Positions 17,101-59,000 of a stretch of 64,000 nt of DNA are shown piece by piece. Below the pieces are notes generated by a model. It did not search any database. It worked only from the letters and a program-made list of their open reading frames with translations, and had not been told where the DNA came from. This DNA is from Asterias amurensis (Eukaryota; Echinodermata; Asteroidea; Forcipulatida; Asteriidae). Within the stretch, counting starts at the first letter, position 1. Each line of letters starts with the position of its first letter. The DNA lies in contig NC_092648.1 of assembly GCF_032118995.1 (NCBI RefSeq), positions 23,526,059 to 23,590,058 on the forward strand, given 5' to 3'. The translations under genes were made by a program, and so were the position numbers.

Positions 17101-20100
17101 TTGTCAAGATGAAATTCCATGCCTGCCCTAACATAAAGCCAAGTTGGAAAATAATCCAACAGAAACGCTCAAGGCTCAATTTCCACAGCACTAAGATTCA
17201 TCCTCAGATGAGATGTCAATATTGCAATGGTAATTTTCATGACATCACATTTTACTTAGCAATTAAAACTGAAACACAGTTAAGATCAATCTTAGCTGTG
17301 TGTTAAAGATTAAAAATAACAAATATTTATTGTCATGAGAAAAAAACATGGAATTTGTCCCCAAAAAAGTAAAGGTACCTCACATATAAACAAATCTAAC
17401 TGAGATATTGTATTTCTTGCACAAAATTGTAGTTTCCCTTCCCCCTTTTTGTTCCCTTCGTTTAATTGTGTGTACATGTTTGCATTTCCAACAGTGGTCA
17501 GTCCAGTTTTTATTATGAAAAAAATAAATAAAACATCTGTGTCTAGTTTACAAAAAGAACATAATTGTGTACTTTACCAGCACTTCTATGATTGGGGTCG
17601 AGATCTGGCATTTCCTTTTTAGCGTCAGGAGACACACTGTAAATAGATGCACCGTCTTCATTCACAATGCTGAGGAAACAAGAACAAGTTGTGTTTGGTA
17701 AACAAAATTGCCCAGCAAGCGAGTCTGTTTCTTGACATTTGATCTATACTTGGCTTCTGGTAGATCCTAAGACAAATCCACACACCCCCTTCGAAATTGG
17801 TATGCCAAGCCTTTCTTGAAGTTTAAACAAAATGTCGGTTTTAACCATAATGTGACCTAGGGGGTCCAAAAGACCAATCTACACATCAAGTTTGGAGTTG
17901 ATATTCATGGTCCTTCTTGATTTGTCACTTGAACAACATTTGTTTGTTATAGCCTTCACAACAATGACATTTGATCTAGGGGATCCAAAAACATTAGACT
18001 TCTGATGAATCTTAAAGCCATTGGACACTTTCGGTAAACAATAATGCCAAAGGCCCACACTTCGTGTATCACAACTTATATATAAAATAACAAACCTGTG
18101 AAAATTTAGGCTCAATCGGTCATCGGAGTCGGGCGAAAATTACGGGAAAACCCACCGTTGTCTCCGCGTGTTTACAATAAATCTGTAATTCTCAATATCG
18201 AGAATTGATAATTGTTTTAATATTTTCTCAAAAAGTAAAGCATTTCATGGAATAATATTTCAAGAGAAGTCTTTTACCATTACCTTCTGTAAACCTTGTA
18301 AGTTATTTGTAAATCTGTGAACTTTTACTTATTTTTCTGTTCCGAAAGTGTCCAATGGCTTTAAGACCAATCCATACACCAATTTCATATTTGCATAACT
18401 GTTACACTAGGTACTGTATTTTGTGTCACAACACTAAAACACACTCACGTTTGAGTAAATTTGTCTGTATACACCAAACAGTGTCCACCATTTATCAAAA
18501 AGGCTTATGCCACAGCCTTTGTTAATCTCTGATACATACCAGTACATGACCTTGAGGTTACCAAAGGCTTTATCGTTGATGAGGTTGGACAGTATCCTCT
18601 CTGTCTCTCTGCAGGCTGTCCCATTACCCAAAGCTATGGTTTCACATCTAGGAGAATCAAAAGCTCAAAGGTTAAGTATCAGATAATAATAATAGCGGCT
18701 TCTTCAATATCATTCTCAATGGAAAGGCAATATACAAAATGTTGCTGTATGCACAGTTATCCATGCTCATATCAAACACCCAGTGGCACTCAAGGTGTGT
18801 CAACATTCCGAAGATTCCTGCAAGATTTGGGACTATATTTTTGAGTTATGAGACCTACTCCTTTTTCATAGCACCATGTAATGGTTTACAAGGTGCTGTG
18901 GCGCAATATAAAGCAAATCATACCAGGAACACAGGGGCGAACACTCGTGAAAAAACATGGGCTGTTTTTTTTCTCTCACAGAACTCGGGTAAGTATTGAG
19001 TATACAGTGGTAAAACACATCAATGTTTATGGGTAAACCAAAATGAATATTCTGTATCCCGATGCAAATTTAACATCTATTAAAACCCAAGACAAAAGAC
19101 AAATGGAAAAAGGGTCCAAGACTAGACAATACCAAACAGATATCTGAACATTAAATGAACAATATTAACCAGAAAGAAAAACCTAGTTAAAACAGGAAGA
19201 CGACAAAAATTGTTAATAACAAGTGGCTCTTCTCTGTCATTTCAAAATAGAAAAGGCGGTTGCTACAAGAACCTGACGGACCTGAGCGCTATATAAGAAG
19301 CCACTATTATTACTTTTATTATGAAGAAGAAAAAAAGGGTCACTTGATGACCTAAACAACAACATTTCTTGGGCTAATCTGATTTCTTACCCATGCCGCT
19401 TTGCCATCTCAACAATCTTCTGGGTTTCTCTCCTTCCATGACTTCCGTGGAGCATGGCCACATCCGTTTCCAATATTTGACCTGTTTTTAAAACAAAATA
19501 TTTTCAATTTCAAATTATGGTCCTATTCCTGACTGAGAGATGGGTAGAGGAGCCAACTGTTATACCCAATTTCAAGAAAGAAGGGAACTTCATTTATCTC
19601 ACCTGGCGATAACTGTGTATCTTGTTCTCAGATGGTTTGAGACAAATGTCAACAAATTCAGGGAACTTTTTATTAAGCGTCACCTTTCGACCACTTTACG
19701 TCGCACAACATTTTTCTTACTGACAATTATCCAATTGCTCATTACCAAGTAAGTTTTTATGCTAAAATTTGTTTTTAAATACAGGGGGCAAAGGAAACCT
19801 TCGAATAAGGGTTGATGTTTTATGAGAATGTGTAAGTTGAAATGAAACGCATGTACAGATGTTAATTCTAACTTTGCCCTCCTTCAAAAGTTCTTTGAGA
19901 TACCAACCTGTAGCTGATGTAATGGCCATTTTAACTCCATTCCTGTAGCCGGGGTCAAGTCCCATGACAACCTTTCCCCTTACTGGTGGGGTCAGCAGGA
20001 GCCGGCGAAGGTTTAGTGCAAACACATCAACTGAAGCCTTCTCGGCCGTCTTTGTTAAATTGGATCTATTTAAAATAACAAGACCTTCTCTTCAAGACAC

Positions 20101-26050: not shown

Positions 26051-26411
26051 TTAAAGGAACACGTTGCCTTGGCTCGGTCGAGTTGGTCTTTGACAGGCGT
26101 TTGCAACCAGTTTTTTTAAATGCATGTGGGTAGAAATATGTTTTTAAAGTAGAATACAGTGACCCACACAAACATGCCTCGAAATTTGACGGTTTTCCTT
26201 TTACCTCATCTACCAATGGCCAACCGTATTATTTCGCACAGTAAAAGGAAAACCACGCAATTTCAAGGCAAACTTGTGTGGATCATTGTATTGTATTTTA
26301 CTTTTAAAACATCTTTCCAACCATGTATTTTATAAAAAAGGGTTACATTTACAAACGCTGTTTAAAGACCAACTCGTCCGATCATAGATAATGGACCAAC
26401 TCGTCCGATTT
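26051..26411. mobile_element. Foldback MITE family D, right tip missing
   Basis: The left tip TTAAAGGAACACGTTGCCTT and an inverted interior matching the complete copy at 41299-41687. The expected right tip is absent and the family A MITE at 26411 begins there instead. Confidence 0.65.
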
Positions 26412-29247: not shown

Positions 29248-31358
29248 GTTGTCTTGATTGATACTGATCCACCATGCCTCGTGTTGGGACCCCAGTTAAG
29301 TCAAGAGGAGTTTCTTGTGCGGTTCATGGTTGTGAAAGTCGTTTCTACAAACAGAATATGTCAAGGTCTCCGTTCCATTTTTTTCCATATCCAGCTAAAC
29401 ACAAACTTCGAGACAGGTGGTGTTTAAAAATAAAAAAAAACCATGATGGTAACAAATTTTATAGAAAGGACATTTTCGTTTGTAATCTGCACTTCAAAGC
29501 AGAGGATTTTACGAGGTCTCTCACAGGCAAATTGAAACTCATCCCTGGTGCTGAGCCAATAAATGTTACTGCTGAGACAAAGTCACAGAGAAAAGAAATG
29601 GTTCCTCAAGGGAGTACAGATGATCATGCTGATTCGTGTGTGGAGATGAATGGCAACCAACCACTCGATGATGGACAAAGCGTTGCTGGTGAAAAGGATA
29701 AATTGAATAATGAACTACAGACAGATACTGACTGTTTAGAAGCACAGGGGAAAAAAATAGTTCCTCCAAGATCTTCTTTGCAAAAAAAATCAACAAATAA
29801 GAGGAGAAATACAGATGCTGATTCCCATGTGAAGATGAATGGCAACCAACCACTCGATGATGGACAAAGCGTTGCTGGTGAAAAGGATAAATTGAATAAT
29901 GAACTGCAGACAGATACTGACTGTTTAGAAGCACAGGGGAAAAAAATAATCCCTCCAAGATCTTCTCTGAAAAAAAAATCAACAACTAAGAGGAGAAATA
30001 CAGATGCTGATTCCCATGTGAAGATGAATGGCAACCAACCACTCGACGGACAAAGCGTTGCTGGTGAAAAGGATAAATTGAATAATGAACTGCAGACAGA
30101 TACTGACTGTTTAGAAGCACAGGGGAAAAAAATAATCCCTCCAAGATCTTCTCTGAACAAAAAATCAACAAATAAGAGGAGAAATACAGATGCTGATTCC
30201 CATGTGAAGATGAATGGCAACCAACCACTCGATGATGGACAATGCACTGTTGATGCAAAGGATAAATTGAATAATGAATTGAAGGCAGAGAATGCCCGCT
30301 TAAGAGCACAGGTCTCTAAGCTAGAAAGATCGTTTAATAGGGCGAAAATTGAAAAATATGAACAAAGTAAGTTCATCAACACTTTGGAAAAAGATGACTC
30401 CCTAACAAAACATCATACTGGATTTCCAACTTTTTCTCTGCTCCTGGCTATGCTTTCCTTTTTGGACCCGGAAATAAACATGATGATGTACTCTTCAAAT
30501 ACATGTGTGAGATCTGAGGATGCAATCGATTTTGACCACAACTACGCAGGTGCTAAAGAAACTCAAAATAAACCTGAGATAAGACCTGATCTGACATCTA
30601 CAGAACAATTTATCTTAGTGCTATGTAGACTAAGGCAGGGTTTTTCCTTGAAACATTTGGGATATCTGTTTGGTATTTCGGAATCCACTGTCGGTAGCTA
30701 TGTTAGCCGCTGGATTAATTTCATGTACGACAGACTTACAGTACTGTCCATTTGGCCTAGCAAAGACGCTGTCCTGAAAAATATGCCACAGATTTTCAGA
30801 GATAAATATCCAGACACGAGGGTTGTTCTTGGTTGTTCAGAAATCTGTGCAGAGGTGCCAGATTCTGTGACTCAACAAAGCATTTACAAGCATCATGTCT
30901 CATACAAAAGCCTCCTGGGGGTTGCTCCAAGGGGTGAAATAACATTCGTCAGTAAGCTCCAGCCTGCATCCGTGTCCAAAAGGGAACTAGTCATCAGAAG
31001 TGGTTTCCTTAATCCAAGTTTGTTTAAAGAAGATGATGTTGTAATGACCGACCAGGGTTTTACTATTGAGGATCTGCTGGAACCTATGAATGTAAAACTT
31101 GACACCCCTGCTTTCCTTAAAGGGAGAGGGCAGTTTAAAACTCAAGAGACCCATAAAACACAACACATGGAAGCAGAGAGAATTCATGTGGAAAGGGCCA
31201 TCGACAATGTTAAACAATTTCGAATTTTGGACAGCCCTATAGATGGGTCCTTACACGAGTCCTTGAACCAAATCTGGACGGTTTGTTGTTTATTGACTCA
31301 TTTCTATAAAGTTACCGGTAGTAAGAAGGATTTTAATAGTTGTATTTCTTATCATTAA
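29248..31358 (+). CDS. THAP zinc-finger / DDE transposase-like protein, 694 residues, single coding exon
   Basis: The coding start ATG at 29274 is in a good context (CCACC before ATG). A 3' acceptor (TTTTCAG) ends at 29247, so there is probably an upstream noncoding exon. THAP C2CH finger: Cys15, Cys20, Cys70, His73, with Pro38, Trp49 and Phe79 conserved, implying DNA binding. Residues about 117-330 are four imperfect repeats of about 63 residues (each with KMNGNQPLDDGQ and EKDKLNNEL), then a short coiled coil. A helix-turn-helix (LGYLFGISESTVGSYV) follows at about 463-480, then a DDE_Tnp_4-like nuclease domain of HARBI1/THAP-transposon type to the C terminus. Asp593 (VMTDQGF) and Glu640 (HVERAI) fit the second and third catalytic residues. 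The expected first Asp is Gly520 (VVLGCSEI). It may be a degenerate transposase or a host-recruited DNA-binding gene. No terminal repeats were recognised around it. Confidence 0.87.
29624..30260 (+). repeat. Coding minisatellite in the THAP gene, unit about 186-189 bp
   Basis: Unit starts (GATGCTGATTC) at about 29624, 29814, 30003 and 30189. The units are highly similar, differ by single bases and one 3-bp deletion (DDG to DG), and keep the reading frame. The fourth unit is partial and diverges after GGACAATGCACTG. Confidence 0.85.
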
Positions 31359-34507: not shown

Positions 34508-37260
34508 CTACCAGCATTTACCAGCTGCGTCACAAAATTGTCCTTCACCGCAATCAACATCGCTAAAACAGCTCCGCTCTGTGCAAAAAGGGAATGGGAA
34601 AAGGGTTACAAAGGATTAGGGATTGATAACCAGGCATACATATAGGATTACATGGGGCCATGTATGCTCCTTCAACAAAATTCCACCGACTTAAAAGATT
34701 GAAAGTGATGCCCTTTGCAAATGAAAGTGGCCTTGCCCTCTCAAAGACGAATCCATGCCTGGAAAACTCTTTAGCAGTTTGTGATACCATAACAAAATAA
34801 CTTGCTTGTGGCCCTAGCAAAAATGCAATAACAGCAAAAATGATCAACTCGTGGAAAAGCTTACAACCACACTGATCCATGCATTATTATATGCACCCAA
34901 ATACTAACATAAATGACAATCATTGGACAGTGGGCCTTAAAAACCAAAAAACACCTTATTTAATCATTTTACATTGAATAGGAGAAAATGTTGAGGTGAA
35001 AAGACCGGTCATCTACTCTTTGTTCAAAGACCATTGGTGTTGCGCAGTCACACACAACCAACGTTCCGATTATCAATCAGAGAAACAGAGCGCCCGCTAG
35101 CGTTCGTTCATTACAAGCGTGTACAGTTTTTGCCGTGCATAATCGGAACGTTGGTTGTGTACGTGTATGTGACCGCGCAACACCAATGGTCTTGGAACCA
35201 AGACTACCGGTCAACTGGCCGCTGCCCAGACCAACCCCAAGCCGTACGTCCTCTGTGTAGGACGTTATGTTATGAGGAGTGCAACCTGTTAAGACAAATC
35301 TAACCGAGCAATTGGCTGGCTTCGTCAACATGGTTCTTTTTTATCTTGTTACATCAATAAAATGAATCTTCAAACTTACTCCGCTCGGGCAGTTCCTCAT
35401 TCAGTTCTATACAGAAAAGAAAAGAAATGTAGAGCTGAAGAATAAAATAACTGCAAGTTGGCAAGATTTCCAAGTTCCCTGAGTGCCGACAAAGGATGTC
35501 AGTTTTAGCTAATGGATTCTCGATATCCTAGTGAACAACATATTTTTGTTTAATTGTGTGCTTTCGTAAACAAATGTATCAACATTTATAATGTGTCAGC
35601 AGGTTGCACATGAGAATGGGCATGTGTTATCCAAAAAAATGGATTTACCTAAATAGTAGGTCTCCAGCCGACCTAGCGTGCAAACAGCCCCATTAATGTG
35701 GCAAGCTATAAGTTTTGAGCGTGAACTTCTATAATGTTCTACAAATCGGTCCTACACAGTATTTTGACATTCTACAAGTGTACATTGTATAACTTGTGTG
35801 TATGGAAACAAGAGAGTGACCTTTGCAATATGAGGTTAAACTGGGAAAGATGTCAATTTTAAGTATGAAGGGCAAAGTTTGGAATGTGCCTATGGACTAC
35901 TGACGATGATTATGCTATAATATGAGGACGTATTTATATGTGACCTACTTTGCTCAAACTCCCGAGTTTCCAACCTCATGAGAAGATTTCTCAGACTCTC
36001 CTTGAGTCCCTCATCTTCTGTTAAAAGAAAAAGAAAAGAAAAAAAATCGAAATCTTAGTTTAAATGTTGAGTGGCATTTTTAATACTCCATTCACACTGT
36101 ATTGCAAGTCATCTCCAATCATGCGCAGATCTTCTAAAACAGATCAAAATACATAAAACCATGCAGTGGCTTGGAACAGTTGTGAAAAGGGGAAGGAGTT
36201 TATAAATACGTCTCACAAACCAATGTGAGATTTTGTATGAATATGATATTCTTTGTGTGCACCAACGAAATAACCAAACTGACAATGAAGCTAAGCAAGC
36301 ACGGTTGTGTTTCTACAACCATGCAAAATGCACTGATACGTAATGTTGTGTCACGTCTAGTCGCCGCCCGATTTTACTCAAAACAGACTAATCTATTTTA
36401 ATCTGCTTATGCTTAGTCAATTGCACTTGTCATCTCAACATGAAATTCTATAAACTCTTTTGTCTTAAATATTTTCATCCTAAGCACCTCTGAATAGATT
36501 GGTGGCGCTCCACCAAAGTGCCGATGATTGATTGATGACTTACCCAAATTATTAGCTGTCACTACGGCACACACTGTACACACAACCAGGGTCAATAACA
36601 TGTACGTCTTCATTTTTCACTGACGCGGTCACTTTGTGAAAAAAATAAAAGCAAAATAAATGGAGGCACTCAGAAAGACTCTCGACTTCTATTATACTAA
36701 AGAAATAAAGTAAAATGGCAATTTACCCCAATTTACGGTGACCGTTAAGCTCAAACAAGTCTGCTGTATTGTCACCAAAAATGGACTAGAAGACACAAAC
36801 GGACAAAAAGTGGGTCCGTACTCTCGTTACTTGATAGACTTCAGAGATCAATGTACTATTATGATTAAACCATTATATAAAGTGGCGTCGGTTCTAAAAT
36901 TTGGAACAAAGTGCATTAGTCTAAAACGTTTAACATCAAATGATGATCAAAACTAAGCAGGAGACGGAGTAGCCGAGGTTTTGAAAAAAAAAAAAAAGGG
37001 TTGTCTATTGCATGTTGCGAATGAGAGCTCCTTTGTGCAGTTGTGTGTCATTTTTTTTGACATGGACTACAGGCCCTAGTACAACTAAAAAACTATCACG
37101 AAAAACTTTTGTAATTCATTTATTACGATATCCAACTTCAGACAAAGGTGTACATTTTTCAATAAAATGAGATAATCCACATCAGAACTCTTACTTACAT
37201 TATAACTTCTGAGTTCATGTAGAAATCGCAGAGTGGTGCACATAGACCGGAGCTAAAAAC
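34508..37260 (-). CDS. Small secreted cysteine-rich peptide precursor, paralogue 1 (78 residues)
   Basis: Coding exons 36613-36544, 36017-35949, 35406-35380 and 34578-34508 on minus. All junctions are GT-AG and in frame. A noncoding first exon ends at 37199 (TATAAT then GTAAGT), matching the first exons of the two paralogues. Exon 1 gives a signal peptide starting MKTYMLLTLVVCTVCAVV. Exon 2 gives an amphipathic propeptide helix (ESLRNLLMRLETRE). The short exon 3 supplies an acidic linker. The last exon completes a Lys-Arg site split across the junction and encodes the predicted 21-residue mature peptide: Cys at mature positions 2, 8, 14 and 20, aromatic at 3, Asp at 7, terminal Trp, net charge about -3. 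The layout fits secretory prepropeptides such as antimicrobial, signalling or toxin-like peptides; the function is unknown. Compare with the cysteine-rich antimicrobial peptide reported from the sea star Patiria pectinifera. Confidence 0.82.
35027..35193. mobile_element. Foldback element in intron 3 of paralogue 1
   Basis: The arms AAGACCATTGGTGTTGCGC and the inverse ending CCAATGGTCTT, with inner CCAACGTTCCGATTA and its inverse. A weaker outer match (GACCGGTC) extends to about 35002-35215. Confidence 0.7.
37243..37254 (-). promoter_or_regulatory. Shared core-promoter motif of the peptide genes (paralogue 1)
   Basis: The inverse of TAGACCGGAGCT reads AGCTCCGGTCTA on minus, preceded by TAGTTTTT. 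The same 12-mer lies at matching distance upstream of the noncoding first exon of the other two paralogues (39540-39551 and 45861-45872). Confidence 0.6.
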
Positions 37261-38221
37261 TAGAATGATGAGGTCGGGTATAGTGACGCTTTGTATTTCA
37301 TTTTCTTTCCATCGCATGCCAATCCCCCGCACCTTTTAAACATTGTATTATTATTCTCTGTTATGAATTCCCAAGAATTCGACAGTGTTCCGGTTTGTTG
37401 GGGGTACACCCACACCCTCCCCCTCAAGTTCAAACCAGTGGGTTTCCGAGAATATTATGTCCCGCTACAATGATTATACCGTAGGGCCTACAGTACATTG
37501 TAAAAGCAACAAGAAGAAAAGAAAAAAAGAAAAAATTTTGATTAAACTGATTCACTTCCGACTTCATTGCAAAGGAAGCAAAATGGAAGTAGTGGTAGCT
37601 GTTTGAAACTGCTTCACAAGCAAAAGTACAAGTATAGTATAGACCTATACATTGTGTTACAGGCCTCGCGCTTTGACCCTGTATGGGAAGAACTTTATGA
37701 GGGACAAACATAAATGAATCGTGTTTTCAGCTCAGAGGGATAAAAGTATGTTGTCACCACAGCCAACCCATAGCATTCAGCGAACCATAATCTGTGACGG
37801 ACGCAACCCTATGTATAGTCTTGAAATCAATCGGAAATTGTTAAGTGCGGTGTAGCTACGGGGACGGTATGCACTCATTCTCGATCCCAGTATGTTTTTG
37901 TGTCGGTGGCAATTGCACTGTGACTGTTCAATGACCGGCAGAATGTGTGTTTGTAAATAAGCAGTGCCTGACGACTTGTCATCAAGTCTACAGTATGTAT
38001 AGGGCCTATTAAAGGTATCATAACAAAATGGAACCAAGCTTAGTGATTAGTGTTAAATCATCAGCGCACTGGGTAAACTAATGTACACAAATACTGTCTA
38101 GACTCCGAATGTGTATGAAGTGTTATTAAAATTGTGTAATCATCAGGTAATAAACCCGTTGCAAGCATTCATGCAACACGGATAACACAAACATTGTACT
38201 TTCATAAACATTACTAAGATG

Positions 38222-38230
38222 TAACGATGA

Positions 38231-38267
<37 letters not shown>

Positions 38268-38312
38268 AACAACAACAACAACAATAACAATGCAACAACG
38301 ACAACAACAAAA
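38222..38312 (+). repeat. GAC/ACA trinucleotide microsatellite
   Basis: About twelve GAC units followed by interrupted ACA units. It lies in the space between the divergent paralogues 1 and 2. Confidence 0.9.
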
Positions 38313-38421
38313 AGTCTCTCAAAATATTGAATAAACTTTACTAATATTCGTTCTTAACAAACGGGGATTTGTTGTATATTATGAATCAAAGAGTAGTGAC
38401 TCGCTCGGTCCAAACCGGTCG

Positions 38422-39200
38422 TTTCAAATATGGTGGCCCTGAAGGGACATCGCATATCGCAAACGTGTGCGCATACGTATGCAATGTCGTGAAACAATTC
38501 GCAAATATGTGCGCACACGTATGCAATGTCGTGAAACAATTCGCGAATATGTGCGCACACGTCTGCGAATATTATTTGCGATGTCGTGAATTTTATTGCA
38601 TACCATGTTGCATACCTTTGAATAAAATGTCTAATGATCTGGGGGTTTTCTTTCCAACAGTGAGATAAGCGGTAGTCATTGCAGCAGTAGTCTTTGTTGT
38701 GAGGCAAGCGAGGCGTGTTGTCGTTCTTGGCCTGGTGCCAAGTTCCTGGGTATACACATGCTTTACAGAGGGAGCCTGCTGTAGCGCCACAGTACTCCCT
38801 AGATCGGTAACAAATTATCCACAACTATGACATCATCCTAATGGTATGCAACATGGTATGCAATAAAATTCACGACATTGCAAAACAAATCGCTCTCGTG
38901 TGCGCACATATTCACGATTTGGTTCACGAAATTGCATACGTGTGCGCACATATTCACGATTTGGTTCACGAGATTGCATACGTGTGCGCACATATTCGCG
39001 ATTTGTTTCACGACATTGCATACGTGTGCGCACATATTCGCGAATTGTTTCACGACATTGCATACGTGTGCGCACATATTCGCGAATTGTTTCACGATAT
39101 TGTATACGTGTGCGCATATATTCGCGATTTGTTTCACATTGCATACGTGTGCGCATTCGTTTGCGTTATGCGATGTCCCTTCGGGGCCACCATATTCAAA
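38422..39200. mobile_element. Foldback element with arms built of a 42-bp satellite (FB/TU-like)
   Basis: The tips TTTCAAATATGGTGGCCC and GGGCCACCATATTCAAA are inverted. The left arm has about 2.5 and the right arm about 6.5 units of a 42-bp repeat (right-arm starts at 38898, 38940, 38982, 39024, 39066, 39108, 39147) containing GTGTGCGCAC and TTCGCGAA sub-palindromes. The inner arm edges match at 38586-38620 and 38840-38874. The only length change between right-arm units is 3 bp. Architecture like Drosophila FB and sea urchin TU elements (family knowledge). Confidence 0.85.
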
Positions 39201-40268
39201 CCTTGCCGGGTCGTGGCAGTGTGATGAAGGACCTCACCTCCGGCTTGCATTTGTCACTCATGGATCTTCAACAACAAGTGGCACAAATAAAATAGAATAA
39301 ACCTGATTATTCTTCGTTCCGATTTACATGTTCACTGTACTGTAAAATCTCACCATTGTATAGCGAGACCTTTACCTTATTCGCGAAAACACACTGACCC
39401 TCGCTCTATGTCTGTGAAGGGGGCGGGGCTGCGAAAAGGAACAATGTGGAAATCTCGACAGCCCCTGGATTCTCAGAGAAGCATAAACATTTTTTTAAAG
39501 AATTTAAATTTATATCACTACCCGATCTAGCTTTTATATAGCTCCGGTCTAATTGCAACCGTTCCCTGATTGAACAGACTAGCGTGTTGTTTGAATTCTC
39601 CTGGAACTCAGAAGTTGTAATGTAAGTAAAAAGTTTAATGTGGATTTTAAGTTTATTGCAAATGTCACCGTGTACATTTTTTTGTCTGAATTACATCTCG
39701 TCATTGCATTTTGTTGATCAGAATGACAAACAACCGAAAGTCAGCTCTACATACGCATCACAATGACAATGTCCCGGGCCCTTTCGAAACCTCGGCTCCT
39801 GCCTCTGTTGATGTTAGAAGCAAAGTTTAGAAATTCACTTTGTTTAAAATTTGGGGACCGAGTTCAAGCGCCAGAGACGCAGGGCCAATCAGGCAGAGGT
39901 TTGGAAAATGGCCCTGGTGTGTGCCTGAGTTATAGCGTTGATTGGAGCCCTCGATGCCTACAATCGAAATGATGTTAAAATCAGTAGTGGTTGAAAATAG
40001 ATCATGTTGTTATAATGTGACGCCGAAGAGTCAATAGTTTCGGAAAAAGGATAAAAGCGAATCCAGAGAGCGGTCCCACTTTTTGCCCAATGGCCACATG
40101 TATCGTGTCGGTCTTTTATATGAAACATTTTGGGTTCAATGTTCAACTTTCTCTATTCCTTTTGTATGCATCATTTTATGAGTCGATAGTCTGTCGTGCA
40201 TATATTGTTATGCTTTTTATGTATTTTTTTCTCATAAATTTCATAAAAGTGACGAGATCAGCTTGAAA
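39201..40268 (+). promoter_or_regulatory. Promoter and noncoding first exon of paralogue 2
   Basis: TTTATATA at 39533-39540 followed at once by AGCTCCGGTCTA (39540-39551). The noncoding exon ends at 39621 (GTTGTAAT then GTAAGT). A block at about 39345-39560 (TCTCACCATTGTATA, GAGACCTTTAC, AGAGAAGCATAA) is repeated upstream of paralogue 3 at about 45645-45870. Confidence 0.65.
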
Positions 40269-43200
40269 ATGAAGACGTACATTTTATTGGCCCTGGTAGT
40301 GTGCGCACTGTGTGCCGTAGTGCAAGCTGATAATAATGAAGGTAAGTCAATCAATCAATCAATCATCAGAAACAGAGCGCCATTATTCTATAAAATATTG
40401 AAATATGGTGGACACTGTACTGCAGCTCGATTAGGTTTGTGTAAATTTGGCTGAAGACACCCAAACCAAGTGATGCACTCCTATACCTCCATGGTCCATC
40501 ATACCTTAAAAAAGGCTAGCAAAGTGGAGGACAATTTTAGACAAAACAATTTATGGAATTTCATGTGTGGAGATGACTAGTGCAATTGACTAAAAATAAT
40601 AATAATATCGAAGTCTTGTTTAGCGCACGTATCGAACAATGTACTCAAGACTAAGCATAGGCCTAAGCAGATTTGAAGAGATTAGTCTTGAGCTGGCTTT
40701 TGAGGGTCGATAAGGAGTCAAGTGTACGGAGCTGATTGGGAGATGATTCCACAGCTTTGGTGCACTCGAATAAAGGCCGCGGAAAATAAACAAGTGACTG
40801 GAGCACATCACGTGCGCAGTGAATCATAGGGTGCGTTCGTTTAGCTTCCCTGGGTCGGCCCCAGGCTGCCCCGGTACGTTCGAATAGCTTTGATGCGGCT
40901 CACCTGGGTCAGCCCCCAGTGCCCTGCTTGTATGTGGAGTGGGCAACACGTTACTGGGGCACATCACGGGCGCAGTGAATCTATATAACTTTACCACCCA
41001 TGCGCTTTGTAACCCAGAATACTTATCGTGAAAGAGAATAGGTGATAGTGTTTCTGGTTCACACAAAAAAAATGATAATGCACCGATGTTTACAGTTTTT
41101 TTTAGGTTTGAAAACTACAGTGATTAAGTTATCCAGAAGACGATCAGAGCATACTGATCGAAACGTCGAGTTAAACCAACGGTTCTTTTAAGAACCACCC
41201 CAACTCATTTAGAGATAGTTATTACATGGTGTTACCGCAAACTCTTTTATATAAGTTATTTAATGAACACTGATTTCATTACAAGGTAATACTGCATATT
41301 AAAGGAACACGTTGCCTTCGATCGGTCGAGTTGGTCTTTGAAAAACGTTTGTAACCGTTTTTTATAAAATGCATATGGGTAGAAAGATGTTGTAAAAGTA
41401 GAATACAATGATCCACACAAACATGCCTCGAAATTGCGTGGTTTTCCTTTTACCTCGTCGACTAACACGTCGGTCATTTATGGGGGTCAAAATTTTGACT
41501 CCCATAAATGGCCGACGGTGATAGTTCGCACAGTAGAAGGAAAACCACGCAATTTCGAGGCAAACTTGTGTGGATCATTGTATGCTACTTTTAAAACATC
41601 TTTCCAACCATATGCATTATATAAAAAACGGTTACAAACGCTTTTGTTTTGACCAACTCGTCCGATCCAAGGCAACGTGTTCCTGTAACTTCAACTTACT
41701 ATAAAAGAATAATTTGTTTTACTGTATACCCCGAAGAATATACCCCAAACTGTTAAGTTAGGACCAGGTTCAACATTTTAACCCTAGAAAATGAGTTAAT
41801 GTACATCTTTTAAAAACAGAGAAAGTTATAGCCTTGCTCAAGGCAGTCGAATTATTCACTCCGAAAAAAGACCGCCGCTGTATAAAAACCCACCCGTATT
41901 CACTGTGCGTAAAACCCACCCGTATTCACTGTGCGTAACTACAGTAACATCGCACGACACGATGCCCCCGTACATTATCCGCATTATCCGCATGCGGACG
42001 GTTAGTGGTGTACGAGTGCGATGACTTGTGTGAACAGTATTCGTGCGATGTGACAGTGTGTATACGGGTGGGTCATTCGGTGTGATCGCACACACCATGC
42101 ACAGGGTATACGGCGGGTGGGTTTACAGCTGCGTCTTTTCGGAGCGAATAATGCGACTGCCTTGAGCAAGGCTAAGAAAGTTACAAAAACCGTTGCGTAA
42201 AAATATCGTATTATAGATTGTACGAAGTGTGCCAAAACAATGTATAAAATCTCACATTGGTTAGTGTGACGTAATTTCTAAAACTCCCCCCCCCCATTTT
42301 TCACCAGTGTTCATGCCACTGTTGTATGTATGATTATGACCTGTTTTACAAGATCTGCACATAAACAGGGAGGGATAGGCCTATAGTCTGACTTGATAAT
42401 GACTAGTCTTGCAGTACAGTGTGATGGAATATTAACAAAAGTCACTCAAAATTAAACCAAGATTTGTTGTCGTTATTTTCAACAGAAGAAAGGGAACTTA
42501 CGGAGAGTCTGAGAAATCTTCTCATGAGGTTGGAAACTCGGGAGTTGGAGCAAAGTAGGTCACATCATGGAGCTACCTCCATGGTCTGTTATGTCCTCAA
42601 CATAAATACCATCGGCAGGTGCCCGTGGGCAATATCCCATTTCACAATACGATGTGTGTACAATAAAACTGAACACCCCTGGATGGAAAATTCCATTGGT
42701 CTTTTACATAAATAACAGCACTGACCGTCGAAAATACAAAAAAGTAAACCCTGTGCAGAAAGAGAAAAGGACTCGCATTATACAACAAAACATCAATGAC
42801 GATGCGTGACAAATAAGTTTAGAACTTGATTCACCGTTCCATTCCAATGGGTATCCGGAACAAATGAACTGCCAATACCTTCAGGTTTTGATGGCCTTTT
42901 GAAGAAAGCCTTTGCCTCGAGCATTTTTTGGAATATCAATTGAAGCGGGCTAGAGCTGAAATAATTATATATATTTTTAAAATGTGAGATAAATCATCCG
43001 GTACAGCCTTCCGAATACCGATTTTGTTTTTTAAAGTCTGTCAGTAGAAAACTTATAAATCATGCCATTTGCATTGTATCCTTTAGTTCTACTTTTCCCT
43101 TTTTTCTCTCTATAGAACGAGACTACCTGAAGGAAGAACTGTCTGAGCAGAGTAAGTTTGAAGACTCATTTTTGTTATTTTTTTTGTTTTAAATGGCGAG

Positions 43201-43586
43201 GTTTCGTAGCCGAGGTTGAACTCCTCTGTAGTACACAACGGAAGACTATAGAGGATGGCTTGGGCTGTGAAGTTTGGGTAGCGGCCTGCGACCGGTCTTT
43301 TCCCCTCATCATTTCCTTTCATTCTATGTGTTTAAAAAGGTTTGATGCGTTTTGATAACAATTTAAGGCCCAATGTGAAGTCTAAAATGGTTGTTATCAA
43401 TGTTATTATCTGCACTACCAACCACCCTCCCTCCAACACACACACAAACTGCCAAGAAACAAAGCCCATAAACGTAATGTTGTTGTATACATTTTCATCC
43501 TCCCTTGTTCTGCAGAGCGGAGGTGTTACAACGATTATGACTGCCCATCTCTCAAACGGTGTAGCAAGACCGGTGTTTGCTGGTAG
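40269..43586 (+). CDS. Small secreted cysteine-rich peptide precursor, paralogue 2 (82 residues)
   Basis: Coding exons 40269-40341, 42486-42554, 43116-43151 and 43516-43586, in frame, with stop TAG at 43584. The ATG follows an in-frame TTG-AAA and aligns with the starts of the paralogues. Signal peptide MKTYILLALVVCALCAVVQA. The propeptide helix exon (ERELTESLRNLLMRLETREL) is identical base for base over 69 bp to that of paralogue 3. Exon 3 carries DYLKEELSEQ and is preceded by an extra Lys-Arg. The last exon gives Lys-Arg then a predicted 21-residue mature peptide with Cys at mature 2, 8, 14 and 20, Tyr3, Asp7 and terminal Trp. Net charge about +2. Two disulfides are predicted. Intron 1 has gathered at least five repeats absent from paralogue 3. 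Function unknown; secreted defence or signalling peptide is inference. Confidence 0.83.
40598..40811 (-). mobile_element. LINE 3'-end fragment (reverse-transcriptase protein C terminus)
   Basis: The minus strand reads GLYSSAPKLWNHLP, a motif typical of the C terminus of CR1/jockey-type reverse-transcriptase proteins. It is followed by a 3' tail GTGCGCTAAACAAGACTTCG with ATT repeats, matching the SINE tail at 3430-3501. Remnants of the same fragment lie at about 47520-47605 (paralogue 3) and probably at about 36370-36415 (paralogue 1). Confidence 0.65.
40826..40990. repeat. Partial AGGGTGCGTTCG-type element (family F)
   Basis: Shares AGCTTCCC, GGTACGTTCGAATAGCTTTG and GCCCCCAGTGCC blocks with the fuller foldback at 57237-57497. 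Found only in intron 1 of paralogue 2. Confidence 0.55.
41299..41687. mobile_element. Foldback MITE family D, complete, 389 bp
   Basis: The tips TTAAAGGAACACGTTGCCTT and AAGGCAACGTGTTCCTGTAA are inverted. Both arms include GGTTTTCCTTTTAC-type and AACAAACATGCCTCG-type blocks. The centre is a palindrome, CATTTATGGG to CCCATAAATG. Confidence 0.82.
41820..42183. mobile_element. hAT-like MITE (41829-42174) with 9-bp target-site duplication
   Basis: The tips TAGCCTTGCTCAAGGCAGTC and GACTGCCTTGAGCAAGGCTA are exact inverses. The flanks 41820-41828 and 42175-42183 are both AGAAAGTTA. A 28-bp direct repeat (CACCCGTATTCACTGTGCGT twice) lies near the left end. Confidence 0.85.
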
Positions 43587-45860
43587 ATGACACGTTGGAA
43601 CGGCACGACACCATTGGCAACATGTATACCGCATAAACTACGTATTACAACTCATACTTCTTGACTACATATTTTTTCGGTTCCCATCAGTTGGAAAAGT
43701 ACATTAGGCTAGGTATTGTAAGTTCCTAATTTGATTTTAGGTGCTTTTTATAAAAAAAGATGATACTTCTTTCACATCAAATTAAAAACATAATGTATGT
43801 TTCAGACTTTATGGATAATTCATCAGTAAAAAACGGAAGGTTGTTGAAAGGCCCTTTCGACACGCGAGAGTTTTCTTCTGTTGCAGTCACTTAGGGATCG
43901 CGGCTCGACGAAGCTGTCCCAGACACGCAGGCCTTGACAAAAGACTATATACCTCCGGATTGCCTTTAATATCAAGCGCCCAATCTGAAATCAACAAGTC
44001 CTTTTAATGGCGGGTATTCTTATGGATGCTATGTCATTTTCACGAGCCATATCAGTACTGGGTGTAGTCTACACTGCAAAACCGAGGTGTTAAATTAACA
44101 CAATTATAGGTGTTGTAACAGATTGATACAAACAAAATAAACAAAATGTACACAAATTTGAAATAACACAAATTTCTTTAAAAACATTTGTATTATTTTT
44201 GACACCCTTTAGTATGACGTTAATTTTGATTCTCTGTTCGGTATCTATGTGACAAACACCCATGGTGTCAATTTTAACACCCCAGTTCGTGCAGTGAATG
44301 ATCTGTATAGTCAAACTGCAGAGCATAGTTGATGAATCCTTATTAAGGTTGGAAGCAAGTATCCAATAATTTATGGCCTCTCGCTATTTTGCAATTTTAC
44401 AAACTTCCACAAGGAGGTATTTCACGATTGAATTTATTTTTGAATAATAAACCAGAGTGCAAGCACGACTTTTCTCTTATTACTGTTTCTTAACTAGAAA
44501 GGTATTTTGATGTGTGTGTTAGAATTGCCATCCTCAAAAGGTTTCCAGATGTCTTTTAAGGATTACCGTGTTTGAAATTTAGAAGAAGACTCACAAAGTT
44601 CGCCGTTGAAAACACAACGATAGTGGTAATTTTGATGCACAGAAAAAAACTGCAGTCTGAAAGTCTGACGTAACATTTCGAGACTCGTAAACAACGCCAG
44701 AGAGAGTGACCCTCAAGCTTAGCCCAATCCCCGTACAAATTCGCAGTTCACCTACATTCATTTCACATGGGAAGACGCAGTAAAACCATGCATACATTGT
44801 ACAAGACAATAGCACATGCAATTACATGTACCGTATATAGAGCATCTGGTCAATAAGTGTGACCTTGTACATTATTTGGCTTTTCTGGCAGGCAAGATAC
44901 TGCACTGGTAATATGGGAACGTTGACATTTTGTGTCATAATAGTTATGAAAGTAAAAGCTGGGCAAGTTTTGAGATGTGCCCCTTTCATCATATCAAAAT
45001 TTGATAAGAATCAGACAGTGCAATCTCCGTGAAATATAACATTTATGTTTTCTCCCATTGAGCTGTGTACAAATCGTATCTTCAGGAAGTCCTGGATCTG
45101 TGGTTCTTTAGTAAACATGTGATGTCACAGGTCACATCGTCTATATAATCACTGCACACAACATGCAGACGACCGAAAGAAGTTTCCTTATCAGCTGTGA
45201 TTTTAAAAGTAACTATAAAGTAAATATGAATAGTAAACTTGCGGGTACAACCATAGGTACAATCTCTTTTGAAGGAGTGCAGGTGGCTCTGAAAAGAGCC
45301 GGTTTTGGTCTCGACGTTTCCAACAGTATACTCTGCTTGTCTTCAGGAGAAGTCTGTGTCTGTGAAAGCTGTGTTTTTGTTGGTTCGAGGTGATGTTTGC
45401 CAGGTGCACCCAAATCACCTCAGACCAATCAAAACACAGGTATGGAAAGCTTACGTCACTGCACGTTTATCCAATGAAATCACTAGCTCTGAGCATTGAT
45501 CTCCATTATAATGCACCATGGTGGGGCCGTGCCAGTACCAATAAATCCAACCATTACAACAACGACGACAACAACAACAAATGCCACAAAATATTGAATG
45601 ATCTACATTATTAATTCGATCTGGTCTTTAAATAGTAAGATCTCACCATTGTATACTGCGACCTTTACTCGACTGCAAAAACACACCGGTCTGAACTTTT
45701 AATGGGTGGGGCCTACGAAAAGGAACAATGTTAACTTTAGGATAACCCCTGGAGTATTAGAGAAGCATAATAGAATTTTGAAAAGGTACGGAGGGTTGGC
45801 AATGGAAAGAGCTCAAATACACAGCTGCACTACCCCAGGTCACCATTCTAGTTTTTTCAA

Positions 45861-45872
45861 AGCTCCGGTCTA
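45861..45872 (+). promoter_or_regulatory. Shared core-promoter motif of the peptide genes (paralogue 3)
   Basis: AGCTCCGGTCTA, about 60 bases upstream of the noncoding exon's donor, as in paralogues 1 and 2. The adjacent TATA-like run of paralogue 2 is replaced by TTTTTTCAA. Confidence 0.6.
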
Positions 45873-46184
45873 TGTACACCACTCTGATTGAAAAAGACTG
45901 CGGTTGTTCGAATTCTCTTGGAACTCAAATTGTAAGTACAGTTCCGTGTAAGTACAGTTCCGATATGGGTATCTCGTTTCTTGCAAATGTCACCATGAAC
46001 CTTTGTCTGAATTGCATTAGAACGTTCTTTCAGTTTTAAGCCCAAGTCCTAGAAATGACAAACACGAAACGAGTTCCAAGCATCAAGCTAAATATCAAAT
46101 AACTTCCTCTTGTTTCTTTTTCCAAACCTCGGTTTGAGCTCCCGTCTCCTGCATCGTTTGATGGATGTTGGAAGCAGATTTTAA

Positions 46185-46520
46185 AGACACTGAACGACAC
46201 GTCACGTTTGGTATAATTATTGTCAGCAGCATTCCGCACTTGGTGTATCTTAACATGATGCATAAAATAAAAAATCGGTGAAAAGTTTGACTCGATTGGT
46301 CATCGAAGTTGCAGGAGAGGATGAAAGAGAAAAAAACGCATAATAAAAGGTTTCAGCTGATGTAATTTATTTAAGTAAAGAAAAACCTCTTTCTCAAAAT
46401 TCAGAGGGAGCCGTTTCTCACAATGTTTAATATCAACAGCTCTCCACGGCTCATTACCAAGTAAGTTTTAATGCTAGTAACCGATTATTTTGAGTAATTA
46501 CCAAGAGTGTCCAGTGCATG
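46185..46520. repeat. Family A MITE, diverged
   Basis: TTAAAGACACTGAACGACAC at the left, GAGTGTCCAGTGCATGC at the right; interior GGGAGCCGTTTCTCACAATG. Confidence 0.6.
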
Positions 46521-47175
46521 CCGATTAAAATGCATTCTGTTCCAAACTTGGGTACCGAGTTCAAGCCGGAGTTGGAGCCCTAATCGAGGTTTGAGAAAAT
46601 GACCCTGGTCTGTGCCTGACTAGCGGTTGATGCTTGGACATCCTTTGGCTTTACTCGAATGCTGGACTTTTTTTACTTTTCAGAACAAACATTGTATCCA
46701 TTCACAGCATTGTCAAATTAATTGTTAAAAATAGATCATGTTGATGGGGCGAGTCAGTGATTTCGCAACAAGATAAAAACGTACAAACCACGTGTGAGAA
46801 ACAAGGAATTTTCCTTCAGAGAATAGCATTTAGAAACTCGATTGGGGTTGTGTTGAGCATATTATTGTGCTTTTTAGTCATACTAATGTGTTGCTATCAG
46901 TAATCAAGAGTTTAGTCCCAGAGTTTTTTGTCCCAGTGGCCATGGGACTTTTTGTCCCATGGCCACTGGTATCCGGTATGTAAAGTTTTACATGGTGTTG
47001 GTAGGCCTATTGGTGACGATAAGTAAGAGGACTTGTTTAATCTGAACTTTTGTGGTAAAACCGGGACAACCCCATGCCTCATACACTATTTTGAAGTCGT
47101 GCATCAAGCCGAGTGTTTCATTATATTATTTTCCTTTTATTTATTTTTTATAGAAGTGATCTGTATCAGTGAAAA

Positions 47176-49395
47176 ATGAAGACGTACATTGTATTGGCCC
47201 TGGTTGTGTGCGCACTGTGTGCCGTAGTGCAAGCTGATAATAATGAAGGTAAGTCGATCAATTAATCATCGGCCATTTTGTAGAGCGTCATCATTCTATT
47301 TAGAGGCGCTTAGCAAAGTTTATGGAAACTTAAGCCAACAGAGTGTAGGTTTGTGTTTTGTCTCAAGACACCCAAAGCGAATGATGCATTCATTTAATGT
47401 CCTCCATACATCCAAAAGGTTCATTCTGAGGCGCTTAGCAAAAAGAGTTTATAGAATATCATGTTGAGATGACAAGTGCAATATTGTATTCAAATTGAAT
47501 AATCAGATTCAAATAGATGAGTCTTTAGCTGGCTTTTGAAGGTCCGGTAAGGAGTCAAGTGTACGGAGCTGATTGGGAGATGATTCCACAGCTATGGTGC
47601 ACATAAATCCGTGAAGAGTGCATAGGCCCTTTTCGAAACCACGGCTGCTGTTCTGGGTTCGGCTCAGGCTAGCTTGTTTTGACAATTGCGCGTGCTCTGC
47701 GAACGTGCTCAGCTTCAGACGAAAGAACGGAGCCTGAAGCCGAAATTCGAAATTCGTGGATTCGAAAAGGGTTCATTGATCTTTGGTGTGACGTAGTTTT
47801 CTACTAAAAACAAATCCACCACCGATCTATAGCTCGACTGATGTAATGCGTTTTGATCTGTTTGACAAGATCTGCACATAAACATAACTGATCCAGCAGA
47901 CTCGCTAGAAGATTACTTGCAATACAGTGTGACTGTAGTATTAAAAAAGTCACTCAAAATTAAACCAAGATCTGTTGTCGTTATTCAACAGAAGAAAGGG
48001 AACTTACGGAGAGTCTGAGAAATCTTCTCATGAGGTTGGAAACTCGGGAGTTGGAGCAAAGTAGGTCACATTATGTCCTCATAACACCACCGACAGGAGC
48101 CCGTATGCATGCCATTGCAATACCATACCACAGGACAATAATATTCTTTTGTGTTATTATGCCCAATACAACTGTAACACCCCTGGATGGAAAATTCCAT
48201 TGACCTTTTACAAATTACAAAAAGTAAACCCTGGAAACGAAAAAAGGGCATACAAAAATCATTGCCAAGGGATAGTTGTTGGTATATGCAACAATACACC
48301 ATTCGTCATCAATTTATTGTAAAAGGCCATGAACGACAGAATGGTTTAGAACCAGTGCAGTTCACCGTTTCATTCCAATGGGCAGTCGGAACAAAATGAA
48401 CTCCCACACCTCCAGGTTCTGATGGCTCTTTGACGAGAGCGATTACCTCGAGCCGTTTCTGGAACTTCAATATTGAAGCAGACTATAGAGCTGACACAAT
48501 ATGAAATGTTGATGAAAAAAATATTGTTGTCAAAAGCACACAACTGAAAATAATTGATCGTGTATACATCGAGAATACATCAGGTAATTTTGGTAATAGC
48601 TAAATCTGACTCCCTGTGTTTTGAACATGGAACAATGTCTGTCAGTTACTTAGTCTGGAAATCCTTACCATTTTGCATTTTCCTTTCAATTCTTGTCTCC
48701 TTTTCCTCTCCCTAGAACTGGAGGAGGCAATTGCGCCTGAGCAGAGTAAGTTCGAAGACTCATTTGTTATAACAATATGAAAAGAGTAACCATGTTTACG
48801 AAGCCACTGCCCGGTCAGATTTGTCTTCAACCCAGGTTGAACTCCTCCGCGCAATGGAGACTGGCGTCCTACCAGAGTATGTTTGGTCTGGGCGTTAGTT
48901 TGGGCAGCGGCCTGTTGACCGGTCTTTTCCCCTTATAAGTTAGTTTTTGACCATTTTAAGGCCCAATGTACAGTTTAAATTGTTGTTATCAATAGTTCTT
49001 TAATGTGCATAATCCCTGACTAGAGTAATGATTGCGCTGACTCTGTGTGATAGGATGAGCTATCCTTTTTACAGCTCCATGGTGATTACATTTGTTGATC
49101 AGTTTTGAAATAATATTGCAATGTCGTGTCGCGGTACTGACTCTCTATCCACATCAAGTGCGGATGCGCACGTGCGAAGCTATACCCGGGCAACATTCCA
49201 TGATCGGGCTTCTTTATGTTCATTTTCTATGGCATTTTTGTCCACAAACTGCCAAGACTATACAATGCTCTTGAATGTAATAATTAGTTTGTAAAATTTG
49301 TTTCTCCTTATTTTGCTCTCACAGAGCGAGGCTGTTTCCACGATTTCGATTGCTCGTCTCGTCGCTGTGACACTTCCCGCAACCAATGCTGGTAG
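47176..49395 (+). CDS. Small secreted cysteine-rich peptide precursor, paralogue 3 (80 residues)
   Basis: Coding exons 47176-47248, 47992-48060, 48716-48745 and 49325-49395, in frame, with stop TAG at 49393. The signal peptide differs from paralogue 2 mainly by one residue (MKTYIVLALVVCALCAVVQA). The propeptide helix exon is identical to paralogue 2. The linker exon is acidic (ELEEAIAPEQ). The last exon follows a Lys-Arg site and encodes a predicted 21-residue mature peptide with Cys at mature 2, 8, 13 and 20 (the third Cys is shifted by one), Phe3, Asp7 and terminal Trp. Net charge about 0. Introns and 3' flank align with paralogue 2, so the two arose by a recent duplication of several kilobases (about 39345-43630 and 45640-49440). 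The precise function cannot be read from sequence. Confidence 0.83.
47627..47775. repeat. TTTCGAAACCACGGCT-type foldback (family G)
   Basis: CCCTTTTCGAAACCACGGCT at the left, an imperfect inverse CGAATTCGTGGATTCGAAAAGGG-like end at the right. A second copy lies at 60209-60360. Intron 1 of paralogue 3. Confidence 0.55.
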
Positions 49396-56068: not shown

Positions 56069-59000
56069 TCAGTTGCAATTCAAATTGTTTTCAACTTGGT
56101 TGATTAATTTGAGTATGTCCTTGCACAATTTCTCAAGGTTGTTGGTCTCTGGACGTGTAAAGTCATAGGTATTCATTCTGGTGACGATTGTAGATTCTGT
56201 ATCATCTCGCAGGAAATGAAATAACACGGCTTGCTGTGCATTTAGAATCAAGCCTGCCACCTCTTTTTGCTTTGTTAAATCTGTGCAACACTCATAAAAA
56301 AGTTGCTTTTTGCTTCGCTCAGAAATATCCCCAAAACCACTTTTCCGAGATGCTATCAATAGCATGTTGCCATCTATCAATTGACATGTTCCGTCCGGCA
56401 CAAAAGTGTGTTTGTCAACAATGTCTGGAAGACTGTAACCAGTAGGACATGTTTTGAAGCGTTCATCACTTGACTCCTGTGGAGGTGAGGGCATTTGGTC
56501 ATCTTCGTAAGTCGAGTCAATTTCCTGAATCTGAAATCCTATTAGATGGGCATTATCATCACTCCTTGAACTGCCGCCGATGTTTCTTACATCGTATATG
56601 GGAGCAGGGCTAGTATGAATCCCCAGCAGATCCTCTATAAGTGACTCTACAGCCTGCCTTCCTGCAGCATTCGAGAACAGCTTTAGAAATCCATATTTAA
56701 ACCTTCTCATCTGTACATTTGCTTGTAGGCGGTCTGAAAAAAGGTAATGAACATGAGCTAAGGTCAAATTCTTCAACATTCAATATCAACACATGTTGGG
56801 TAACTATCCAAACTGTTGAGTGAGGGGTGGACCTGTAATCTGTTTTGCATCCCCACCCCCGCCCCCTTGTGAACTTGTGCAATTTGTCCATTCAGGGGAA
56901 TGTTTCCAGTCCACCTCAGACTTTTAATTTACACTGCCAAACAAAATCAGACTTTGACGAAAATCAGAAACTGGTAACAATATCCACTGTTGGTATAACA
57001 AAATCACACATAAAGATTTCTTCTACAACTTCCGGTGGTTACTGAGCAGTATCTAATGGCAGCTCCTTCACAAGCCTTCCCTGATGCCTGCCATGGCACA
57101 ATAATATTGACTGCCTTTAATAAAAACGTTCCTGAAGTTTAATTCAGCACACACCAAGAAAGGGTCCTTTCTATTCCACTTCGGACCTCATCTTGGAAAC
57201 ACTGTTGTTTCTGCACTGGCTCCCTATCAAACATAATATGGGTATGTTCGATTAGCTTCCCTGTGTAAAAGGTGCTTTCTCATTCGGGTGAGCCCCTGAC
57301 AAGAGCTAATCGAACGATCACATTCGCCCTCTCGTGGTGTTGTCATGCACCTCGGGCCAGCTCCAGGTGACCCGTTCCACAAGCTAGGCACTGGGGGCTG
57401 ACCTGGAGGAGCCCCTGGAATGACGTCAAAGCTATTTGAACGTACCGGGGACAGACTGGGGTCGACCCGGGGAAGATAATCCAACGCACCCTATGTCATG
57501 TCTATATCTCATACTGGTACCCAATGCTTGTGCATATTATAGACATGAAAAGTATGGGAACCAGAGAAGTATATGTAACATGCTTTTAAAGTTGGAAATT
57601 TAAACTTTTGTAAAATTGAAAAGGCTGTTTTTAAGGACAAATTTGAAAATTGTATATTTAGTACGAACACTTGTATTTTCATAAACATTAACAACTTTAT
57701 AATAATTTACATTTATTTTGTAATAGTTGGCAGCTATAAAGAATGGTTAAGCTCATAAATATTGACACAGACATTTATAGATTAATTCTTTTCTTTCCCC
57801 CTTTTTTTCTTTCAATCGACAAACCTATGTTTACAGATACGCCATATCACCTGAACCAAACTGTCCTATAAATGAGTAAAGTGTTATTACCAACTACATA
57901 TACTTACTTTCCACCTCCCAAACAGAAAACCCTGACAATTCTTTGTATTTGATGTCTTTGATGGCTTGCTGCAGATTTGTTGATAAACTTGGTTCTGGTA
58001 GGTTGTCCAACATTATTGTAGAGTTTATGGGCAGTATCTTTTACACCTTTTGTTTGTCTTGTTTTGTGAGCTGTTTATATACTCCGACCCATTTATACTC
58101 TTCTGGTCTCTCTAAATTCCACTTTAAATAACTTCTTTCTATGTCCAGAATGACAATTGCCTACAAATGAAAATAAACAATCAAAGTAAAGCCTGTGGGA
58201 ACATTCGAGTACCGGTATGTTACTTATAATGTAAAGATGCTGTGGTTTAAACAACTACTTGTAAGCCACAAATTTGTGGACCACGTCAGGTGGATAGTTT
58301 CTTTTTTGCCTTGTAATGCACTAGCAACTGAAAAAAAGGTACACCAATACTGGTCATGCAACCAAATTAAATATCAGGTAAACAAAGCAATAGTAACAAA
58401 TTATTCCAAAATCTTTGTATTTTGGGATTAATAACCTTCAAGAGGAACATAGCAGCAACAAAATAACAAAACATTAAGAGTTATGTTATGATATGCACAT
58501 ATTAATATGATGAACTGCACAATCCTCGCGTGCCGAGTATGTGGTATAGATCGCAGCTAGCAATTTTTTTTTTCAAGTTTGAATTTGTGATTCCAATTTT
58601 ACACCAAAAATTAATTTGAGAGAATCCTTTCTTTTGTTTCAAGAAGAGTAAAATTACTATTTTACTATTAATTTTTTAATGACAATGGAAATTTAGACTA
58701 CAAAGAAAAGAATTTGCTCACAGCTAAATGTAGCTGCAACCATCTTGTCCTTACTCTATGCTGCAACCATGAGCCATGCTGCAACATGTCTCCCAATGCG
58801 AACGGTGTTCATACTCAACCAGAATCAGCTGATTTGCTGGCACCCCAACACATGTTCTGAGTACAAGTATTACACAATATCGGCTGCTGTCATCAAGCAG
58901 TCTTTTTACAACTCAGCTGAGATGCTTTGGTTAGAGGAAATAGAACGGATGATTCAAGAGAAAACATATATCATTGGTTTGATATAATTTACGAAAAAAC

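Follow-up and report, generated by a model that had tools for sequence, protein, structure and literature searches.

The precursors KARTESH and CHUPA of the sea star Asterias rubens contain a signal peptide, an acidic stretch, a convertase site and a mature peptide with four cysteines, and their levels in the coelomic fluid go up after injury. KASH2, which with KASH1 makes up KARTESH and is the only sea-star peptide of its kind with a known structure that our search found, has a solved disulfide-directed beta-hairpin (DDH) structure with I-III and II-IV pairing, and the growth of human fibroblasts was unaffected by it. Homologues of the KARTESH and CHUPA proteins are said to exist in other echinoderms; for KASH2, the A. 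rubens genome alone yielded usable ones, and the authors, who prefer convergence with the arachnid peptides as its origin, call for synteny and additional relatives to decide the matter (all in the available sections of PMC11891777). The DDH fold is also described with another pairing, C1-C4 and C2-C3 (excerpt of PMC4942781). Min-23, which is EETI-II cut at the N-terminus, contains two disulfides (excerpts of PMC6259850 and PMC2659701), and PpCrAMP of Patiria pectinifera is a cysteine-rich sea-star peptide that is called a beta-hairpin in excerpts of two reviews. In our study, a cluster of three paralogous genes (A, B and C), which appear to encode small secreted four-cysteine peptides, was found in 64,000 nucleotides of Asterias amurensis (assembly GCF_032118995.1, contig NC_092648.1, forward strand, 23,526,059-23,590,058), hereafter the window. 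The cluster extends from 34508, the final stop-codon base of gene A on the minus strand, to 49395, that of gene C.

After the joining of exons at GT-AG boundaries, gene A (minus strand) and genes B and C (plus strand) gave precursors of 78, 82 and 80 residues, which bears out the initial annotation of one divergent gene and two others with precursors of 78-82 residues. Four coding exons were found in A, B and C alike, and all nine introns were GT-AG and of phase 1. Intron 3 splits the Lys codon of the final Lys-Arg into A and AG in the three genes, as had been annotated, and therefore exon 4, in the manner of a cassette, holds the 21-residue mature peptide together with the rest of Lys-Arg. 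The annotated count of four exons stands for the coding exons, and each gene probably has an additional non-coding exon at its 5' end. A block starting with AGCTCCGGTC lies 5' of each gene in matching orientation, and these three sites are its only occurrences on either strand of the window; it ends at a GTAAGT donor in each gene, and gene C contains a second GTAAGT 16 bases on. This block is a candidate, with its acceptor before the ATG not fixed, and is likely to represent a promoter and a non-coding first exon.

The three precursors contained a signal-like N-terminus (residues 5-18 hydrophobic, V at -3 and A at -1), followed by an acidic pro-region, Lys-Arg and a CW-ending mature part with a predicted length of 21 residues, and the annotated layout was thus present in each gene. 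The pro-region segment SLRNLLMRLETRE was common to A, B and C. The mature parts share the pattern C-x2-D-x-D-C-x4/5-C-x5/6-C-W, with the spacing C-x5-C-x5-C-x5-C in A and B and C-x5-C-x4-C-x6-C in C. The net charge (K and R minus D and E) was -3 in A, +2 in B and 0 in C, because of which a plain cationic antimicrobial family fits poorly and was rejected. A C-terminal Gly for amidation was absent from all three precursors. In addition to the annotated Lys-Arg site, gene B contained a second one where exons 2 and 3 join, in place of the Lys-Leu of A and C, and the ten-residue linker of B may therefore also be released as a separate peptide.

In all six frames, the window contained three occurrences of the strict exon-4 motif with CW followed by a stop codon, against a mean of 0.0000 in 150 first-order Markov sequences of window length, which rules out chance frames, in agreement with the earlier claim that the genes are real. 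A looser four-cysteine pattern occurred 4 times against a Markov mean of 0.94. The whole assembly (491,506,623 bases in 23 contigs) was searched with an exon-2 27-mer, allowing up to 3 mismatches, and matches were found at these three loci only; the copy number rests on this one pattern, its counts are lower bounds, and more diverged copies elsewhere in the assembly are possible. Among about 5.8 billion proteins, three open reading frames (ORFs) matched the three-sequence profile at E<=0.1, and two of them also matched gene C alone at E<=10. These public ORFs represent exon 1 running into intron 1, with nothing covered beyond a stretch of that intron, and correspond one-to-one to the three loci: the best locus was B for one (92.5% over 80 residues), C for another (91.5% over 71, the intron part) and A for the third (88% over 59). 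The one-to-one mapping points to counterparts of all three loci in one or more other sequenced sources, and together with the architecture and the conservation it supports real genes for secreted four-cysteine peptides. Alignment of the exon-2 read-through gave 722 candidates, none at E<=1; 64 stretches were flagged in viral contigs and none was confirmed, and the tRNA scan with ARAGORN gave 0. A transposon origin was rejected, as no transposase was found among the Pfam matches of the precursors and the frame with a DDE transposase lies apart (29268-31358).

The conservation of the three genes was found to be uneven along their length. In MAFFT alignments, exons 1 and 2 were near-identical between B and C and 84-90% identical between A and the others; exon 2 was the same in B and C at 69/69 positions, and in A it matched either at 62/69, so that the propeptide is not invariant as had been annotated. 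Its annotated helical character is unproven and an amphipathic helical pro-region was rejected, as the helical hydrophobic moment was matched by 37% and 55% of 5000 shuffles. The identity of exon 4 between genes was 54-58%, whereas that of the first 50 columns past the stop codon was 74-88% (35/40, 29/39 and 30/39 ungapped columns), which confirms the annotated agreement of the 3' flanks; in all three pairs the flank directly past the stop was more conserved than exon 4. Beyond the common Cys and Trp, the mature peptides share 3/15 residues in B-C, 3/16 in A-B and 4/15 in A-C. Change at the first and second codon positions of the mature part exceeded that of the 3' flank in two of the three pairs (one-sided Fisher p = 0.0007, 0.002 and 0.06, with sites taken as independent and the values indicative only). 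The four Cys codons are spelled alike in the three genes, and we read exon 4 as a cassette that changes quickly while the cysteines stay.

The mature peptides are predicted to adopt a two-disulfide knottin core. Genes A and C were modelled as 31-residue stretches, of which the first 8 residues are translated intron (with one extra Cys among them in gene A) and residue 9 is Glu in place of the Lys of the spliced protein. The model of the mature part of A resembles squash trypsin inhibitors without the inhibitory loop, at no significant E-value; it aligned to residues 3-28 of EETI-II, and its cysteines fall on 9, 15, 21 and 27. The model of C gave weak fold matches to carboxypeptidase inhibitors and a fly-venom knottin, and the predicted fold resembles that of cystine-stabilised beta (CSB) peptides for A and weakly for C. 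The weak sequence matches were elafin, nawaprin and an MCoTI-based cyclotide for gene B and an Ascaris carboxypeptidase inhibitor for gene A; the best E-values, 0.31 with Foldseek and 0.19 with PDB sequences, were not significant. A pairing of C1-C3 and C2-C4 would suit this core. Six Pfam matches of the three precursors were obtained at E<=10 (DUF7107, WAP, DUF7740 twice, Dickkopf_N and Uteroglobin), all below the curated cut-offs; WAP reached 14.6 bits in gene B against a cut-off of 20.8 and was not listed for A and C. The PDB profile search gave 6 matches with the precursors (ribosomal L29 and the like), which led nowhere, and 3 weak matches with the mature parts; mature C had 0 matches among PDB sequences. 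The KASH2 entries 8V2M and 8V2U were absent from the Foldseek and VIA match lists, which is no proof of differing folds, and were not among the PDB sequence or profile matches of precursors or mature parts, their presence in the searched PDB set being unchecked. Literal strings of the three peptides had no match in the literature search.

Like KARTESH and CHUPA, all three genes combine a signal peptide, an acidic region, a dibasic site and a four-cysteine mature peptide in a small sea-star family, and the earlier statement that no named family has this layout was not right as to kind (PMC11891777, available sections). Their mature peptides contain 21 residues, in contrast to 28-30 in KARTESH and 35-48 in CHUPA, and end in CW where KASH2 has an amidation signal (same sections); the comparison is one of layout and length, not of sequence. 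The kind of family seems ordinary, and its form (21-mers, the CW end, the predicted CSB core and the cassette exon) appears new. PpCrAMP contains 38 residues and four cysteines. In DDH peptides, such as U1-LITX-Lw1a of scorpions, two disulfides brace one hairpin, as predicted for the trio, and the consensus contains a central G/P between C2 and C3. Gene A contains C-x5-C-x2-G-x2-C-x5-C, whereas B lacks the central Gly/Pro and C contains only x4 there; the trio is shorter than DDH peptides, and no sequence match to them was seen. The spacing C-x5-C-x5-C-x5-C of the squash inhibitors EETI-II and MCoTI-II is present in A and B and not in C. These inhibitors contain a six-cysteine knot and an inhibitory loop, whereas the trio contains four cysteines, lacks Cys I and Cys IV and starts past most of the loop; the squash inhibitors are plant proteins, and the likeness would be one of fold and does not imply kinship. 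The C-x2-D-x-D-C element is also present in elafin (WAP), Dickkopf-4 and EB-type modules. The WAP domain is an eight-cysteine, four-disulfide core, and WAP, Dickkopf and EB-type modules all contain more cysteines than the four of the trio.

We favour the reading that the three genes encode diversifying secreted defence peptides, and judge this reading, mechanism included, to stand about evenly between right and wrong. The precursor would enter the secretory path through its signal peptide, and the acidic pro-region would aid folding or hold the peptide inactive. An enzyme of the furin or prohormone-convertase type would then cleave after Lys-Arg and free the 21-residue peptide, which would fold into a minimal CSB or disulfide-directed hairpin core with C1-C3 and C2-C4 bonds. 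The residues between the cysteines would ride on this rigid frame, and since they differ between the paralogues, the three peptides probably have different binding targets. The role would most likely be host defence or a response to injury in the coelomic fluid or the epithelia, through target binding and not bulk cationic lysis. The greater variability of the mature-encoding part than of the rest of the gene is a hint of a defence role, which we offer as a guess with equal chances of proving true or false.

Two results weigh against diversification by selection: Nei-Gojobori dN/dS was below 1 in all three pairs, and the third codon positions of the mature part were strongly altered too (9/15, 10/16 and 10/15). 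The dN/dS values and the codon counts rest on a manual alignment of the exon-4 codons at the cysteines, and the dN/dS rows for the mature part start one residue early, with the Arg of the Lys-Arg site included; the lengths and charges given here were recomputed. These results speak for a non-adaptive history, in which exons 1 and 2 of an old tandem family were homogenised by gene conversion and exon 4 drifted within the cysteine frame, as does the identity of B and C around exon 2, which is 69/69 within it, 69/80 in the 100 columns upstream and 21/29 in the 50 columns downstream. It is harder to reconcile with the 3' flank outconserving exon 4 in every pair and with the shared mature residues, which mostly keep the same codons (6/7, 6/7 and 7/8). 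An old split of the genes, with the 5' exons homogenised since, competes fairly with a quick-changing cassette; we consider this history rather unlikely, and it can be true beside any of the roles proposed. An antifeedant, skin or stomach secretion whose peptides diversify like those of cone snails would also explain the conserved pre-pro part, the variable mature exon and the unchanged Cys codons, a pattern likened to that of cone-snail genes. Only three copies were found with the exon-2 pattern, and we regard this reading as very unlikely; the available sections of PMC11891777 contain a general remark on the likeness.

Peptides cut by convertases and acting on the animal's own receptors, as in a neuropeptide or peptide-hormone family, are an unlikely but arguable account. 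Starfish neuropeptide precursors are built in a similar way, with a signal peptide, a Lys-Arg and a mature peptide of small size, and several contain cysteines thought to form disulfides (excerpt of PMC4772807); the amidation signal of KASH2 (PMC11891777, available sections) would also fit. Against this account, no four-cysteine peptide with the spacing of the trio was seen in the excerpt of PMC4772807, and all three genes of the trio lack the C-terminal Gly. The trio moreover keeps its pro-region and varies its mature part. This is the reverse of receptor-bound peptides, which usually conserve the mature part over the pro-region. A protease inhibitor built on the core of squash inhibitors, elafin or carboxypeptidase inhibitors would account for the fold matches of A (squash trypsin inhibitors) and C (carboxypeptidase inhibitors and the fly-venom knottin) and for the weak sequence matches of B and A. 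However, those matches span the frame and not the reactive site, none is significant, and Cys I, Cys IV and most of the squash inhibitory loop are missing, which makes this role quite improbable.

Table 1. Positions in the window of the coding exons, candidate 5' blocks and 3' flank of the three genes.
Feature	Position	Strand	Remark
Gene A candidate non-coding 5' exon/promoter block, from AGCTCCGGTC	37199..37254	-	donor GTAAGT at 37198
Gene A coding exon 1, signal peptide	36544..36613	-	identity 59/70 with either B or C
Gene A exon 2, pro-region	35949..36017	-	identity 62/69 with either B or C
Gene A exon 3, acidic linker	35380..35406	-	
Gene A exon 4: Lys-Arg remainder, predicted mature SCFSDVDCGEGQFCDAAGKCW, stop	34508..34578	-	motif; model and fold matches
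Gene B candidate non-coding 5' exon/promoter block	39540..39621	+	donor at 39622
Gene B coding exon 1, signal peptide	40269..40341	+	71/73 identical to C
Gene B exon 2, pro-region	42486..42554	+	69/69 identical to C
Gene B exon 3, acidic linker; second Lys-Arg where exons 2 and 3 join	43116..43151	+	
Gene B exon 4: Lys-Arg remainder, predicted mature RCYNDYDCPSLKRCSKTGVCW, stop	43516..43586	+	motif; PDB sequence matches
Gene B conserved 3' flank directly after stop	43587..43636	+	identity in ungapped columns 35/40 with C, 29/39 with A
Gene C candidate non-coding 5' exon/promoter block	45861..45931	+	donor at 45932
Gene C coding exon 1, signal peptide	47176..47248	+	
Gene C exon 2, pro-region	47992..48060	+	
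Gene C exon 3, acidic linker	48716..48745	+	
Gene C exon 4: Lys-Arg remainder, predicted mature GCFHDFDCSSRRCDTSRNQCW, stop	49325..49395	+	motif; model and weak fold matches

Upstream of the cluster, frames with S1 and Tex_YqgF domains were found at 8190-8483 and 19765-20091 (minus strand), which we take to be parts of one minus-strand SRBD1/Tex-like gene and which are a possible synteny anchor. The 696-codon open frame at 29268-31358 (plus strand) contained THAP, HTH_Tnp_4 and DDE_Tnp_4 domains, with copies of a tandem unit of about 190 bases in its first half. Between genes A and B, an inverted repeat with arms built from short tandem units was present at 38427-39196. Intron 1 of gene B contained a near-palindrome of about 390 bases (41299-41688), with related copies at 26051-26383, which resembles a non-autonomous hairpin element. 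On the other flank of the cluster, a 236-residue open frame starting from Met (56072-56779, minus strand) had no Pfam match at E<=0.01 and is a possible gene.

It is possible, though we hold it doubtful, that sea stars use the minimal CSB core, which peptide engineers obtained by trimming squash inhibitors (Min-21/Min-23), as free-standing 21-residue natural products, with a conserved pre-pro part delivering a fast-changing last exon. If so, echinoderms would use the two-disulfide frame a second time and in a smaller form, next to KASH2, and the trio would offer a natural test of whether this frame predates the inhibitor cystine knot. The worth of the trio lies in its clear exon structure, its one-to-one counterparts elsewhere and its cassette-like variable last exon, and 21-mers are easy to synthesise. 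KASH2 has almost no usable homologues, and the three genes, if related to it, would provide genomic material for the question of its origin.

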